Part shown: positions 7,616 through 18,656 of the stretch, piece after piece
Layout of the letters: each line of letters begins with the position of its first letter
How positions within the stretch are numbered: position 1 is the stretch's first letter
From: a virus
Reading direction: 5' to 3' (one strand)
DNA length: 22,343 bases
IMG/VR virus record: IMGVR_UViG_3300028044_000085
Coordinates: 1-22,343 of that record
Program-made: the position numbers and the translations under genes
The notes under the pieces: generated by a model
The model's database searches: none
What the model was told of the DNA's origin: nothing
Seen by the model: the letters and a program-made list of their open reading frames with translations, nothing else

Positions 7616-7690
7616 GATCCTCGCTTTCGCTCGGGCCAGCTCCGATGGGGCGCGCGACGGCGCGCGGGTCGCGTTGCTCCCGGCCCAGGC
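7616..7690. repeat. Degenerate copy of the 89-bp repeat family (gp11/gp12 junction)
   Basis: The stretch follows the order of the 53-bp constant half of the arrays: CCTCGC, GCTCGGG, GCTCCG, GCGCGCGACGGCGCGC, GGGTCGC, then GCTCCC. It has a perfect GCGCGC-GACG-GCGCGC inverted repeat. It is a single, diverged unit. Confidence 0.55.
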
Positions 7691-7704
7691 GGGCAAGGAA
7701 TAGG

Positions 7705-8290: not shown

Positions 8291-9047
8291 GCCTCCCGCG
8301 CTGAGGGCGCTCCGGCGGGGCGGCGCACGAGCGCCAGGTCGCAACGGTGCTCCCTAAACCCTGCGGGTTTGGGTGAATAGCCTCACGCGCTGAGGGCGCT
8401 CCGGCGGGGCGGCGCACGAGCGCCGGGTCGCAACGGTGCTCCCTAAACCCTGCGGGTTTGGGTTAATAGCCTCACGCGCTGAGGGCGCTCCGGCGGGGCG
8501 GCGCACGAGCGCCGGGTCGCAACGGTGCTCCCTAAACCCTGCGGGTTTGGGTGAATAGCCTCACGCGCTGAGGGCGCTCCGGCGGGGCGGCGCACGAGCG
8601 CCGGGTCGCAACGGTGCTCCCTAAACCCTGCGGGTTTGGGTTAATAGCCTCACGCGCTGAGGGCGCTCCGGCGGGGCGGCGCACGAGCGCCGGGTCGCAA
8701 CGGTGCTCCCTAAACCCTGCGGGTTTGGGTGAATAGCCTCACGCGCTGAGGGCGCTCCGGCGGGGCGGCGCACGAGCGCCGGGTCGCAACTGTGCTCCCT
8801 AAACCCTGCGGGTTTGGGTGAATAGCCTCACGCGCTGAAGGCGCTCCGGCGGGGCGGCGCACGAGCGCCGGGTCGCAACTGTGCTCCCTAAACCCTGCGG
8901 GTTTGGGTGAATAGCCTCACGCGCTGAAGGCGCTCCGGCGGGGCGGCGCACGAGCGCCGGGTCGCAACTGTGCTCCCTAAACCCTGCGGGTTTGGGTTAA
9001 TAGCCTCACGCGCTGAAGGCGCTCCGGCGGGGCGGCGCACGAGCGCC
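8291..9047. repeat. 89-bp tandem array, eight full units plus a partial ninth
   Basis: Unit starts at the CGCGCTGA motif fall at 8297, 8386, 8475, 8564, 8653, 8742, 8831, 8920 and 9009, exactly 89 bp apart. Each unit is a 53-bp constant half, containing the inverted repeat GGCGCTC/GAGCGCC, plus a 36-bp half containing GCTCCCT and the hairpin AAACCC-TGC-GGGTTT. Units differ by single changes that are graded along the array: CTGAGGG becomes CTGAAGG from 8831 onward, and CGGTGC becomes CTGTGC from 8742 onward. GTGAATAG and GTTAATAG alternate in the first units, pointing to duplication as dimers. 89 is not divisible by three, so the array does not encode a repeat protein. It fills the gap between gp10.1 and the tape measure gene. 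Confidence 0.97.
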
Positions 9048-9666: not shown

Positions 9667-9738
9667 GTTCCTGCGCTGCGCTCCGGGCAACCTGCGACGG
9701 CGCGCGGGTCGCGTGGCTCCCTCGCCGCTGCGCGTCGC
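9667..9738. repeat. Degenerate copy of the 89-bp repeat family (gp9/gp10 junction)
   Basis: The segment contains GCGCTGCGCTCCGGGC, GCGACGGCGCGCGGGTCGC and GGCTCCCT in the same order as the constant half of the arrays. A weak hairpin follows (CGCCGC-TGC-GCGTCG) and then CTTC. It is a single unit and diverged. Confidence 0.6.
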
Positions 9739-9745
9739 TTCAGTT

Positions 9746-10159
9746 TCAAGCCGCAGTGAAGGTGATTTCGCCGGCGGATTCGAGGGCGATGTCGAAGGCG
9801 ACTTCGCCGTCGTGTTTGCCGCTGAGGTCGAAGCTGTTGATCTGGAACGGGCCTTGAACGGTGCCAAAACCTGGGATCACGATTTGCCAGGGTGCAATGG
9901 TGCCGTTGAAAACGTGCGTGCGCACGATTGCATCTGAGGCGGCGTTCTTGAAGATTCCCGAGCCGGTGAGGCCAGCGGATTTGCCGCCGCCTCCGGCCAG
10001 GAGTTCGCGCCAAAGGCCTGCGGATTCCGATGAGGTTACATCGACGGTTGCCAGATTGAAGCTGATCTTGCGTGAGCGGATGCCAGCCACGGTCGTGTAA
10101 ACGCCGGTGCCGTTCGCATCGACTTTGAGCAGAAGGTCTTTGCCTTTTTGTGCGGTCAT
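9746..10159 (-). CDS. Major tail (tube) protein, TP901-1-like (RcGTA gp9-like)
   Basis: The 137-residue protein begins MTAQKGKDLLLKVDANGTG and includes VAGIRSRKISFNLATVDVTS, WRELLAGGGGKSAGLTGSG and a final DIALESAGEITFTAA. These are the conserved blocks of the GTA/TP901-1 tail tube family. The length is practically that of the RcGTA protein. The mRNA should need high expression, since the tube is built from many copies. The gene is flanked on its upstream side by a five-unit 89-bp array and on its downstream side by a degenerate unit, so structured RNA brackets this cistron. Confidence 0.95.
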   Translation of the reverse strand: MTAQKGKDLLLKVDANGTGVYTTVAGIRSRKISFNLATVDVTSSESAGLWRELLAGGGGKSAGLTGSGIFKNAASDAIVRTHVFNGTIAPWQIVIPGFGTVQGPFQINSFDLSGKHDGEVAFDIALESAGEITFTAA

Positions 10160-10179
10160 TATTTATCTCGCTTTGTTAT

Positions 10180-10653
10180 GCCTCACGCGCTGAGGGCGCT
10201 CCGGCGGGGCGGCGCACGAGCGCCGGGTCGCAAATTTGCTCCCTATCGGCTTCGCCGATGTCATTTTTGCCTCACGCGCTGAGGGCGCTCCGGCGGGGCG
10301 GCGCACGAGCGCCGGGTCGCAAATTTGCTCCCTATCGGCTTCGCCGATGTCATTTTTGCCTCACGCGCTGAGGGCGCTCCGGCGGGGCGGCGCACTAGCG
10401 CCGGGTCGCAAATTTGCTCCCTATCAGCTTCGCCGATGTCATTTTTGCCTCACGCGCTTAAGGCGCTCCGGCGGGGCGGCGCACGAGCGCCGGGTCGCAA
10501 ATTTGCTCCCTATCGGCTTCGCCGATGTCATTTTTGCCTCACGCGCTTAAGGCGCTCCGGCGGGGCGGCGCACGAGCGCCGGGTCGCAAATTTGCTCCCT
10601 CGACGCCTATGGCGTCGCTTTTGTGTGCCTCGCGCGCTGCGGCGCGTGAGGCC
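10180..10653. repeat. 89-bp array with five units and inverted ends
   Basis: Unit starts fall at 10186, 10275, 10364, 10453 and 10542, exactly 89 bp apart. The 53-bp constant half is shared with the array at 8291. The 36-bp half differs in sequence but keeps the length and layout: GCTCCCT, the hairpin ATCGGC-TTC-GCCGAT, and a T-run. In the last unit this half is replaced by another 36 bp with the hairpin CGACGCC-TAT-GGCGTCG. The array starts with GCCTCACGCGC (10180-10190) and ends with its reverse complement GCGCGTGAGGC (10642-10652), like the ends of a mobile element. It fills the gp8/gp9 gap. Confidence 0.96.
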
Positions 10654-10654
10654 A

Positions 10655-11068
10655 CTAAATAGGTTCGGTGACGGCGCGGAAGCGGACAAGGGCGCGGTAG
10701 GTTTCGTTGTCGGGTTCGCGGCGGGCTTCGGTAAATTCGTGGCGCAAATTGATGAGGCGATGGCCGTCCAGGGTGAGGGCCGACTGATGGAGCGTAGCGC
10801 GGACGAGGGCTGCGATGTCGTGGACTTGTTTGCGTCCCGGCATGCGGGACCAGACATGGAGCGTCAGCGTGTGCTCGCGGCCATCGTCGCTGCCCGTTGA
10901 CCAGTCGCGCTCGATGGTTTGGCCGAGCGACAGGTATGGGTAGGGCGTTTTAGGCGGCACGTCGTCGTAGACGCGTGCGGTGCCACCCGTTGCGGTGGTG
11001 AGCGCGGCGTTTGCGTTCAGGGCCGCCACAACGGCGGATTGCAGGGCAAGGCTGGCGCTTGCGGGCAT
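10655..11068 (-). CDS. Tail terminator, DUF3168 (RcGTA gp8-like)
   Basis: This 137-residue protein has the DUF3168 pattern: an N-terminal helix (SLALQSAVVAALNANAALT), YDDVPPKTPYPYLSLGQT, HTLTLHVWSRMPGRKQVHDI and a C-terminal YRALVRFRAVTE. The family caps the tail tube and joins it to the neck. GAGGG lies upstream of ATG 11068 at somewhat long spacing. It follows a 281-bp gap filled by composite hairpin element X and precedes the 89-bp array at 10180. Confidence 0.95.
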   Translation of the reverse strand: MPASASLALQSAVVAALNANAALTTATGGTARVYDDVPPKTPYPYLSLGQTIERDWSTGSDDGREHTLTLHVWSRMPGRKQVHDIAALVRATLHQSALTLDGHRLINLRHEFTEARREPDNETYRALVRFRAVTEPI

Positions 11069-11109: not shown

Positions 11110-11314
11110 GGGGCTATCGCCCCGGACCCCATTCGAGGGGGACACCCCCTCGAACTCTCCCCGTTTTTTGTGACGAAGAAAAAGTCATGGGTCCAGGGAC
11201 GCGTCCCTGGCCGGGGTGTCCGAGGGGCGGGGAGCCCCTCGGCTTTGTAAGGCTGGGATGGGCTTCGAGCTTGTGGCTACCCCACCCCTAACCCCTCCCC
11301 GCAAGGGGGAGGGG
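11110..11314. repeat. Composite palindromic element X (double hairpin plus three further modules)
   Basis: The modules, in order, are GGGGC-TATC-GCCCC (11110-11123); TTCGAGGGGG-ACA-CCCCCTCGAA (11132-11154); CCCCGTTTTTTGTGACGAA; CCAGGGAC-GC-GTCCCTGG (11193-11210); CCGAGGGGC-GGGGA-GCCCCTCGG (11220-11242) followed by CTTT; and CCCCTCCCC-GCAAG-GGGGAGGGG (11292-11314). The same modules occur in the same order at 12667-12868. No ORF of the GTA type crosses this 281-bp gap between the small gp7.5 ORF and gp8. Confidence 0.85.
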
Positions 11315-12597: not shown

Positions 12598-12870
12598 CCT
12601 CGCAAGCGGAGGAGGGACACTTGCGAGGTGTGGGGATGGGTATGTAGGTAAAGAGGCGCTACGCGCTTGGGCTGCCGCCCAAACCCGCTTGAGAGGGACA
12701 CCCTCTCAAACTCGCCCGCTTTTTTTGGGGGACGAAAAAAATAGAACGGGTCCAGGGACAAGTCCCTGGCCGGGGTGTCCGAGGGGCGGGGAGCCCCTTG
12801 GCTTCGTGCAGTAAAGGCGGAGGTTGTGGCTACCCCCACCCCTAACCCCTCCCCGCAAGGGGGGGGAATC
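12598..12870. repeat. Palindromic gap between capsid and gp6: 9-bp hairpin plus composite element Y
   Basis: CCTCGCAAG (12598-12606) and CTTGCGAGG (12620-12628) form a 9-bp stem with a 13-base loop. Element Y then repeats the modules of X: TTGGGC-TGCC-GCCCAA (12667-12682), TTGAGAGGG-ACA-CCCTCTCAA (12689-12709), a run of seven T, CCAGGGAC-AA-GTCCCTGG (12752-12769), CCGAGGGGC-GGGGA-GCCCCTTGG, and CCCCTCCCC-GCAA followed by a G-run. The stem bases of the first two hairpins differ from X on both sides, so pairing is kept. From 12428 to 12597 I see no gene and no clear structure. Confidence 0.85.
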
Positions 12871-14816: not shown

Positions 14817-14862
14817 TTTGGGTAAGCGCGGGTGGCTTTGTTGCTTGCGATGCTCCGCATCG

Positions 14863-15207
14863 ACCGGGATGACGGTGTTGCGCCAGAAGGTGCGGTTGGC
14901 TTCCTGGTCGTTGGAGAAGGTGTTGTCGCCGGGGATGCGTCACCGCAGAGCGGTGCTCCGCACCGACGCAGCATGGGGGGAACGCCGAGGGCTAATGCGA
15001 TTTCGCGGGCGGCGGCGTGTTTGGTGTTGACGAAGTCGAGTTCGGCGGGGGTCAGCGACAGCGGTTTCCAGTCGAGGCCGCCTTCGAGAAGGAGAGGACG
15101 GCCGGCTTACTCCGTTAATGGTCATGCTTCGCATGAACGCACCCTGGAAGCCTTCCTGGAGTTCGTTCTTCAGGCGCTCGAATTGTTCAGGGCTGAGGCG
15201 GCCTTAT
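14863..15207 (-). pseudogene. Decayed duplicate of the central portal coding region
   Basis: On the minus strand this stretch matches the portal gene at about 17645-17940, nearly base for base over long blocks. It covers portal residues about 240-335 (from RLSPEQFERLKNELQEGFQ to TFWRNTVI). Two indels break the frame. One (around 14948-14970) inserts sequence with the hairpin CGGTGC-TCC-GCACCG. The other (15104-15142) inserts sequence with TCATGC-TTC-GCATGA. Just beyond its end is a third hairpin of the same form, CGATGC-TCC-GCATCG (14848-14862). The fragment begins 4 bp after the immunity gene at 15214, so it looks like the portal part of a further displaced portal-toxin copy. Confidence 0.9.
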
Positions 15208-15868: not shown

Positions 15869-16603
15869 CTATTTCCTCCTAGGTGCGGAAACACTGCCTG
15901 CGGGTGTTAGAATGGTGATGCTTTCAATTTTTGAACCAAGTCTGTTATCAGTTCCGTAGGCGCGCACTATCGCGCGATCTGCAGCATCTGTCGTCATTCC
16001 TACTTGACTTCGCGCATCGACGATAATGTGGCCTGATTGACCGCGTCCATCCATGATGCGACTAGAAATAGCAGATGACAAACCATCATTGTCTGTCTTT
16101 TGGATGCCGGAAACGGTCTTTAGTTCATGCAGTTGCCCATTAATTTTGAAATCGGGGGTCCTGCCTTCACCGGTCGGCACGATCTCGATGTCGTTTCCCA
16201 GGTCGCGCATTTCATTTGCGAATGCTTTCTCCGCCGGTGTCAACTTGTCAACATTGCCAGTGATTTTACCGCTGCCAGGCTTCTTGGAAAGGAAGTCGGG
16301 TTTTGGAGCAACAGGTTTGACTGTCGGCGGCGTAGCAGCCGTTGCCGGAGCAGGAGGCTTGGGTGGTTGAGGGGGGCGGGGGCGGTAGGCGATGGGCGTT
16401 AGGCCGCTGCCGCCACCAGGGCCGGAGGTGAATTGGCCGTTTGAGGGGTCGTGGTTGGGGTTGAATTTTGTGAGGGGTTTGGGGCCGTAGCCGGCGGCGG
16501 AGCGCTTTTCGTCGTCGGTGAGGAAGGATGCTTTTTCGAGGCGGGTCCAGAGGGCTTCGCGTTCGGGGGATAGGGCTTCGATCTGGTCGGGGCCGCGTTT
16601 CAC
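15869..16603 (-). CDS. Orphan portal-tail / PD-(D/E)XK nuclease toxin module B
   Basis: The 244-residue product starts at GTG 16603, overlapping the stop of immunity gene A (GTGA). Residues 5-40 (DQIEALSPEREALWTRLEK and onward to AAGYG) copy the end of the portal (portal residues 364-397). Next come FNPNHDPSNGQFTSGPGGG, a Pro-rich linker (70-105) and a C-terminal domain from about 118. That domain has TPDF, then HELKTVSG: Pro150-Asp151, eight residues, Glu160-x-Lys162. This is a textbook PD-(D/E)XK nuclease site. Similar domains end CdiA-type contact toxins that cut tRNA or DNA. The exact substrate cannot be told here. Without the rest of the portal it is an orphan module that could be expressed after recombination onto the portal or by translational coupling. 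Confidence 0.85.
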   Translation of the reverse strand: MKRGPDQIEALSPEREALWTRLEKASFLTDDEKRSAAGYGPKPLTKFNPNHDPSNGQFTSGPGGGSGLTPIAYRPRPPQPPKPPAPATAATPPTVKPVAPKPDFLSKKPGSGKITGNVDKLTPAEKAFANEMRDLGNDIEIVPTGEGRTPDFKINGQLHELKTVSGIQKTDNDGLSSAISSRIMDGRGQSGHIIVDARSQVGMTTDAADRAIVRAYGTDNRLGSKIESITILTPAGSVSAPRRK

Positions 16604-16989: not shown

Positions 16990-18656
16990 TTTCTGTGCAC
17001 CTTAAAATTATCTTTAATTCCTGAAGCGCCATTCTTCATCACCTCGATTGTCGGTCCGTAAGCCAGGCTATTTCTAAGACCAAAGATCGTCCCATCTTTT
17101 CTGGAGAACCACTTTCCGCCGTACGAAACAGGCGCATCGACCTCTTGTGCACCATTAAGCAGATCCCCCAGAAGTTGGTCAAAATCAGCCGACGCGACTT
17201 CTCGAATCCGAGAGTTTGCCCCACGCTCACCGATATACCGGCCTTCAGGCTTTAGGATGTCTTCAAGCGTTTTGGGAGGGGTGTCGGCCACAGGAACAAG
17301 GTTGGGATTGTTCCAGGTGGGCCACTCAGAGGGGTCGGCTTGTGGGGACTCGCCGCCGCCGTCGCCGCTTGTCCATTGGCCTTGGTCGTCGCGGGGTTGG
17401 TCAGGGCTGTATTTTGGGCGGATTGGTGGGCTAAACTTTAGCTGGTCGCCACCTCGAGCATGTCCATAGCCTGCAGCTTGGCGCTTTTCGTTGGGGGTCA
17501 GAAATGAGGTCTTTTCCAGACGAGTCCAGAGGGCTTCGCGTTCGGGGGCGAGGGCTTCCACTTGATCGAGGTCTGGCTTTAGGCAGAGACCGCCACCGAA
17601 TGCAGCGCCGAGCCAATTTGAGATTGCTGCTGCTGATCTCGTGGCGAGCGGGATGACGGTGTTGCGCCAGAAGGTGCGGTTGGCTTCCTGATAGTTGGAG
17701 AAGGTGTTGTCGCCGGGGATGCCGAGCAGCATCGGGGGGACGCCGAGGGCGAGCGCGATCTCGCGGGCGGCGGCGTGTTTGGCGTTGACGAAGTCGAGTT
17801 CGGCCGGGGTGAGCGAGAGCGGTTTCCAGTCGAGGCCGCCTTCGAGCAGGAGGGGGCGGCCGGCGTTTTTCGCGCCTTGGAAGCCTTCCTGGAGTTCGTT
17901 TTTCAGGCGCTCGAATTGTTCCGGGCTAAGGCGGCCTTCGCGGGCGGCGTAGACGAGGGCGCCGGAGGGGCGGGCGGCGTTATCCAGCAGGGCCTTGTTC
18001 CACTTGGAGGCCTGGTTGTGGATGTCGATGGCGACGGCTGCGGCTTCGATGGGGGACATGCCGTAGTGGTCGTCCAAGGGGTGGAACAGGCGCATGTGGA
18101 GGATGGGGCGGACGCCGGGGACGACGTCTGCGCTGAAGCGGACGGAGCCGCCGGCGGCCGTGTACTCATAGCCCTCGGGCCAGCCGGACAGGCCGGGGAT
18201 GACCGTCATGCGGTCGGGGCGCAGCGCATAGAGTTCGCGCAATTCGCCGTTCAGGGCGACGGCCTCGACGTAGCTGTTGCCGGAGACGAGGAGGTAGCCG
18301 ATGAAGCTTTCGAGAAAGTCGGTGCCGGTCTGGTGGGGGCTGGGGCTGGCGAGCAGGGACAGGAGCGGGTGGTCTTCGAGCTCGTTTGCGCCCTCGTAGA
18401 GCAGCAGGGGGACTGAGGCTGCGGCTTCGGAGATCATGCGGACGCAGCGGTAACAGATCGCGTTTTGCATGAAGCCTTCACGCGAGAAGGCTGCGTAGTC
18501 GCGGCCCGACCAGACGGGTGCGCCGAGGCTCTCGTAGGCGATCAGCGGGCCGGTGCGGGTGGCTTTTTGTTGCGCGGGGCGTGTGAGGGCGTGGGCCCAG
18601 GCGGGGATTTGCGCGCGGGTTGGCAGCAGGCGCGCCAAGGCGTCCGGGATGTTCAT
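16986..18656 (-). CDS. GTA portal protein with C-terminal toxin-like domain (RcGTA gp3-like fusion)
   Basis: Residues 1-400 are an HK97-type portal: FSREGFMQNAICYRCVRMIS (58-77), SGNSYVEA (125-132), HPLDDHYGMSPIEAA (192-206), KWNKALLDNAARPSG and LGVPPMLLGIPGDNTFSNY (304-321). RcGTA portal ends near here, about 400 residues. This protein goes on to 556. After AAGYGHA comes a linker with YSPDQPRDDQGQWTSGDGGG (416-435) and a compact domain (about 465-556) with RYIGERGANSRI, SYGGKWFSRKDGTIFGLRN, GPTIEV and a final KDNFKVHRK. This is the style of polymorphic toxin tips, and the closing K-x-H is reminiscent of small RNase folds, but I cannot name the family. Portal C-termini face the capsid interior, so the domain could be packaged in the particle. 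The stop overlaps candidate immunity gene A. Confidence 0.93.
   Translation of the reverse strand: MNIPDALARLLPTRAQIPAWAHALTRPAQQKATRTGPLIAYESLGAPVWSGRDYAAFSREGFMQNAICYRCVRMISEAAASVPLLLYEGANELEDHPLLSLLASPSPHQTGTDFLESFIGYLLVSGNSYVEAVALNGELRELYALRPDRMTVIPGLSGWPEGYEYTAAGGSVRFSADVVPGVRPILHMRLFHPLDDHYGMSPIEAAAVAIDIHNQASKWNKALLDNAARPSGALVYAAREGRLSPEQFERLKNELQEGFQGAKNAGRPLLLEGGLDWKPLSLTPAELDFVNAKHAAAREIALALGVPPMLLGIPGDNTFSNYQEANRTFWRNTVIPLATRSAAAISNWLGAAFGGGLCLKPDLDQVEALAPEREALWTRLEKTSFLTPNEKRQAAGYGHARGGDQLKFSPPIRPKYSPDQPRDDQGQWTSGDGGGESPQADPSEWPTWNNPNLVPVADTPPKTLEDILKPEGRYIGERGANSRIREVASADFDQLLGDLLNGAQEVDAPVSYGGKWFSRKDGTIFGLRNSLAYGPTIEVMKNGASGIKDNFKVHRK

Follow-up and report, generated by a model that had tools for sequence, protein, structure and literature searches.

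A tandem array between gene transfer agent genes as a probable local amplification of a dispersed, structured intergenic repeat of Hyphomicrobiaceae

An array between two gene transfer agent genes

What is the tandemly repeated DNA that fills the gap between two gene transfer agent (GTA) genes, and how might it have come to be there? The window analyzed here, a 22.3-kb IMG/VR contig (22,343 nucleotides), carries an RcGTA-like GTA cluster on the minus strand, with genes for terminase, portal, prohead protease, HK97 capsid, tail completion, tail tube, GTA-gp10, DUF2460, Gp84/BR0599, NlpC/P60 and the GTA_TIM tail protein. The closest relatives of its capsid among GTDB genomes, at up to 70% identity, are mostly from Hyphomicrobium and other Hyphomicrobiaceae. 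The array in question, array B, occupies the gap between a gp9-like tail tube gene (9746-10159, minus strand; PF06199, E 1.1e-41), whose start codon lies 20 bp to its left, and a gp8-like tail completion gene (10655-11068, minus strand; PF11367, E 2.8e-39), whose end lies to its right.

A preliminary description of this locus had recognized a tandem array, and TRF bears this out, with an 89-bp period from 10180 (10179-10600, 4.7 copies, 98% match). Read on the plus strand, four 89-bp units starting at 10180, 10269, 10358 and 10447 fill 10180-10535; their P5 helix is ATCGGC-TTC-GCCGAT, with ATCAGC in place of ATCGGC as a stem mismatch in the third unit, and their linker is GTCATTTTT (covariance model matches at 10200-10257, 10289-10346, 10378-10438 and 10467-10524). 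A fifth unit on the same strand (10536-10626; match at 10556-10616) has a different P5 helix, CGACGCC-TAT-GGCGTCG, and is 91 bp long because this stem has seven pairs. The equal 36-bp second halves described previously are therefore found in the four 89-bp units but not in the last one, whose second half measures 38 bp. We propose, with a probability of about 0.78, that array B arose where one copy belonging to a dispersed family of structured intergenic repeats of the Hyphomicrobiaceae was amplified locally, head to tail.

Anatomy of the element

The element is about 90-110 bp long and reads, on the plus strand, CTCAC, P1, TCCG..GGGG, the P3 hairpin, GGGTCGC..GCTCCC (P4), the P5 hairpin and a linker. 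CTCAC, TCCG, GGGTCGC and GCTCCC are almost fixed across copies, while P1, P3 and P5 vary in their letters and keep their pairing. In unit 1 of array B (plus strand), P0/P1 (GCCTC..GGGGC around GCGC..GCGC) covers 10180-10210 in the minimum-energy fold, with P1 covarying family-wide; the P3 hairpin GGCGC-ACGA-GCGCC lies at 10211-10224 (covariation, fold); the near-invariant P4, GGGTCGC-AAATTT-GCTCCC, at 10225-10243 (covariation alignment, fold and family pattern); and the last segment, 10245-10268 (sequence, covariation and fold), consists of the P5 hairpin (10245-10259) and a 9-nt local linker (10260-10268). The minimum-energy fold of a single unit sets P0/P1, P3, P4 and P5 in line, and its energy is not unusual relative to dinucleotide shuffles (z -0.9 to -1.8).

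Array A, in the gap between two other GTA genes, repeats the same element 8.5 times at 89 bp per unit (8291-9047, plus strand; TRF and covariance model), with the P5 helix AAACCC-TGC-GGGTTT. A single diverged copy lies in another GTA gap (7641-7695, plus strand; covariance model E 9.7e-6), and sequence comparison places a degenerate copy, with GGGTCGCGTGGCTCCC at 9706, in the gp9-gp10 gap (about 9670-9735, plus strand, boundaries approximate). Arrays A and B have the core up to GCTCCCT in common, save for a few bases after GGGTCGC, and the number of matches to the core expected from shuffled sequence is 0; in a sister strain the two arrays share even AAATTTGCTCCCT. The shared half noted earlier is thus present in both arrays, but its natural boundary is GCTCCCT, at about 65 bp instead of 53 bp. 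Three parts make up the variable 36-bp half, namely the 3' end of this conserved core, helix P5 and the 9-nt local linker; each locus has its own P5 and linker, hence the appearance of a "different 36-bp half". As previously described, each of the three second halves (those of array A, of the four array B units and of the last unit) has, after GCTCCC, a stem closed by a 3-base loop.

Both arrays in the window have an 89-bp period because each combines the common core with a 6-3-6 hairpin and a 9-nt linker, and this is no general rule: tandem periods in other genomes range from 86 to 181 bp, and the proposed constraint on unit length is not supported. Variable unit lengths together with the lack of a stem had been named as the observation that would count against the earlier reading; lengths do vary elsewhere, but the stem is present. 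Within an array in those genomes P5 is usually the same or nearly so, and between arrays it differs. A regular period with a variable part is also what a CRISPR-like array of repeats and spacers would offer, but here the "spacers" within one array are the same hairpin, with no unique sequences, and we exclude this explanation.

A dispersed family in the Hyphomicrobiaceae

The covariance model R1 was built from 14 sequences of other genomes, none of them from the window, with a seed limited to 6-3-6 hairpins (a first MAFFT alignment had P5 off by one column). It matches every unit in the window (E 2e-7 to 5e-5) and has matches in 63 of 103 Hyphomicrobiaceae genomes, with up to 57 copies per genome; among 288 other Alphaproteobacteria there was one weak match in one genome. 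BLAST with a 65-mer core found matches in 35 of the 103 genomes, and the pattern GGGTCGCN{1,6}GCTCCC occurs 51, 22, 21 and 21 times in single genomes versus 0-4 times for a reversed control (51 versus 4 in G070). No Rfam family matched the element above its gathering threshold or in a permissive search, plasmid and phage collections contained no match, and the literature outside subscription papers yielded no description of a Hyphomicrobium repeat or of a repeat linked to tRNA or SRP RNA genes. The element thus represents a so far unlisted family of folded DNA repeats that lie between genes and are spread across the Hyphomicrobiaceae.

The Rhizobium-specific intergenic mosaic elements (RIME) and Brucella Bru-RS are mosaic palindromic intergenic repeats of about 100 bp. 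The present element resembles them in these features and occurs in the same order of bacteria, but model R1 had no match in 16 genomes of Rhizobium (several species), Brucella (one) and related groups; it is this model search, and not the RIME sequence itself, that sets the families apart. PMC2873474 cites RIME.

The GTAG and CGTC REPs (PMC3733652) are likewise short palindromes between genes that form tandem clusters, a likeness that would fit a REP/BIME-type element mobilized by a REP-associated Y1 transposase (RAYT). The element shares with E. coli BIMEs and the GTAG/CGTC REP families (PMC3733652) a short, palindromic form, intergenic and dispersed placement, restriction to a lineage, and tandem clusters that include flank. 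Unlike them, it is a multi-helix unit with fixed single-stranded motifs, covarying helices and direct orientation within arrays, and it keeps a fixed distance to the 3' ends of stable RNAs. It is built of three to four helices and is no single 20-40 bp palindrome with a GTAG or CGTC tag. Moreover, Y1_Tnp (PF01797) was found in just 3 of 24 genomes and is lacking from most high-copy genomes, among them those best suited to the comparison, G070 (57 copies, complete chromosome) and G028 (22 copies, complete). We regard mobilization by a RAYT as very improbable.

On two complete chromosomes the element shows a chromosome-wide strand bias, with 52 of 57 copies (G070 C1) and 18 of 22 copies (G028 C1) on one strand. 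Replichore bias was considered as the cause of this orientation and rejected as inconsistent; the bias does not track the GC-skew halves of either chromosome. On G028 C1 (4.47 Mb; loci L312-L331), the GC3 strand difference has the same sign in 19 of the 20 stretches of 20 kb that were sampled and nowhere clearly inverts, a pattern that would suit a single-replichore chromosome or a misassembly. In G028 and G029, many copies contain within their P3 loop a second palindromic repeat, CAACACTCGGCAAGCCGGTGTTG or a near relative (L220, L226, L229, L232 and L241; about 1370-1610).

Covariation of the helices

The preliminary description held that structure is constrained while sequence varies in the second half, and this extends to the whole family. 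In an alignment of 133 distinct copies fitted to the model, 95.9% of cells are paired versus 81.0% after shuffling, and two-sided changes occur at 13 pairs in 296 cells. Covariation, which it had been proposed to test, was scored against shuffles and gave 0.347 versus 0.107, a value reached in 0 of 500 shuffles, in a comparison that does not model the relatedness of the copies; the signal collapses when the partner register is slid by one column.

Since this alignment was model-fitted, P1, P3 and P5 were also examined by fixed position. P1, which lies outside the model, has a mean of 4.0 of 5 Watson-Crick pairs; exchanging arms among copies lowers this mean to 2.48 (at most 2.91 over 200 swaps). 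P5 has a mean of 5.18 pairs versus 3.43 in shuffles. Among 95 well-paired copies there are 39 distinct 6-nt P5 arms, mostly closed by 3-nt TNN loops (TGC, TTC, TCC and similar). At one orthologous place, between the SRP RNA gene and a dnaX-like gene (13 rows, 4 of them read by eye), the P1 and P5 arms vary jointly between genomes, with co-changes such as GCCCG/CGGGC, GGGCG/CGCCC, GAGCG/CGCTC and GGGCC/GGCCC. P1, P3 and P5 change sequence yet keep their pairing, and the evidence for this, not corrected for phylogeny, is strong. Base-pair covariation of this strength in a dispersed bacterial repeat would mean that something reads the folded form.

Mispairs bear on which molecule folds. With registers set by Watson-Crick pairs only, G-T outnumbers A-C by 21:4 in P5, 3:1 in P3 and 7:6 in P1; a stronger G-T excess appears only in the alignment fitted with G-U allowed. 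The excess leans toward RNA of the plus strand as the folded molecule and does not prove it.

Position after stable RNA genes

In the 22 genomes with no more than four model matches, one copy was inspected in each; 12 copies follow the SRP RNA gene, seven a tRNA-Ser, two a tRNA-Ala and one a protein gene, such that 21 of 22 lie directly 3' of an SRP RNA gene or tRNA. Across the loci examined, which were chosen for the element and so give no genome frequency, the element directly follows 27 of 63 distinct tRNAs, and in most of these cases CTCAC starts 7-10 nt past the tRNA 3' end. Sixteen of the 27 are tRNA-Ser, with four anticodons. Of 37 tRNA-element pairs, 34 have the element on the 3' side, 31 of them on the same strand.

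The surplus of G-T over A-C mispairs, and the sense orientation of the element right behind tRNA and SRP RNA genes, lead us to suggest that the structure may act in plus-strand RNA, where it could mark or protect transcript 3' ends; a role of this kind at stable RNA genes is the weaker part of our proposal. The element is not a required terminator, since low-copy genomes have only one to four copies for many tRNAs. As regards an intrinsic terminator, array B has a T run after P5 on the plus strand, with the GTA genes on the minus strand, and other copies have AAG there. A bolder reading, which we consider doubtful, is that the element represents a new structured RNA class of the Hyphomicrobiaceae, placed at a constant distance downstream of SRP RNA and tRNA genes and acting on transcript 3' ends, that escaped from there to become an amplifying interspersed repeat. 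If true, it would be a bacterial parallel to RNA-gene-derived SINEs. The near-constant distance of low-copy members from SRP RNA and tRNA genes, together with their multiplication in some genomes, makes a testable case of a structured site turning into a repeat.

The same precise position, 7-10 nt after tRNA ends, could instead point to remnants of site-specific integration at tRNA and SRP RNA 3' ends, in which the element would have been inserted together with a stretch of tRNA 3' end, comparable to attL/attR or to the E. coli tyrT repeats. Some copies are indeed followed by a tRNA 3'-like stretch ending in CCGCCA (L124, score 15; L347, score 12; L241 and L250, by eye). Over the 27 tRNA copies, however, downstream similarity to the own tRNA end is 7.56, barely higher than the 6.90 for other isotypes and 6.67 for shuffles, and no repeat of the tRNA-end type was seen at the SRP RNA copies; we judge such integration unlikely. 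Duplication of the tRNA 3' end was likewise set aside as a general feature, with a few convincing cases only. Stretches resembling tRNA 3' ends (GTTCGAA ... CCGCCA) were observed after the element at several tRNA-Ser and tRNA-Lys genes (L124, L241, L250, L260, L274 and L347).

The 178-bp tyrT repeats of E. coli (rtT RNA) are tandem units downstream of a tRNA gene, in some cases with a piece of the tRNA 3' end. The element is like them in all of this. They form one locus, whereas the element belongs to a dispersed family without an Rfam match to rtT or others.

Copy number and possible growth of the arrays

Related contigs offer a view of how the arrays change. In L013, which is 99.9% identical to the window, array A is exactly one 89-bp unit shorter; in sister contigs about 89-92% identical to the window it has two (L009) or three (L011) units, with AAATTT after GGGTCGC in both. 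The gp8-gp9 junction holds one matching and one diverged unit in the sister strain versus five units in the window, and in L009 both units there have the CGACGC-type P5, as does the last unit of array B. The GTA-cluster arrays thus differ in copy number by one unit between near-identical contigs, although differences between contigs could be due to assembly collapse.

These comparisons also bear on whether array B is a non-autonomous, MITE-like transposon bounded by GCCTCACGCGC and GCGCGTGAGGC, as the inverted 11-mers at its two ends might suggest and as the preliminary description had it in likening the array ends to element termini. GCGCGTGAGGC, at the right end, pairs with GCCTCGCGCGC directly to its left, forming the local hairpin GCCTCGCGCGC-TGCG-GCGCGTGAGGC at 10627-10652, and since L009 has the same hairpin without the array, it is not an array terminus. 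The outer flanks of array B carry no duplication, the sister strain differs in the number and type of units and not in the presence or absence of a block, and repeats between upstream and downstream flanks come mainly from tandem copies and shared mosaic modules. Array B is not an element bounded by paired termini, and a MITE-like origin seems to us highly improbable. A search for target-site duplications, as had been proposed, gave nothing in support. Long duplications were rejected as well: same-strand flank similarity averaged 18.6 versus 8.5 for swapped pairs, but the top cases are array units or mosaic modules.

Expansion in place is the simplest account of array B, in line with what the sister strain shows. 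Slippage, or unequal recombination between identical cores, may lengthen and shorten arrays, and recombination or conversion through the core could yield mosaics with the same core and a new P5 and linker. The ATCGGC-type P5 would then have been brought in through the shared core, beside the fifth unit, whose P5 type is that found at the same junction in the sister strain.

Other features of the GTA cluster

The element copies of the window run antisense to the GTA genes, possibly as passengers; another Hyphomicrobium has a sense copy directly after the GTA capsid gene. Between the portal and protease genes of the window, an ORF with a CdiA C-terminal domain (PF18451, E 2.8e-9; 15869-16603, minus strand) adjoins a duplicated piece similar to the portal region (14861-15205 versus 17645-17938, 91-96%), which suggests an inserted module. 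The contig ends (9-115 and 22237-22343) are perfect inverted copies of each other over 107 bp, probably representing a genomic repeat that stopped the assembly. A further pair of 85-bp intergenic repeats, 85% identical and with adjoining 47-bp repeats, lies in GTA gaps at 11164-11248 and 12723-12807.
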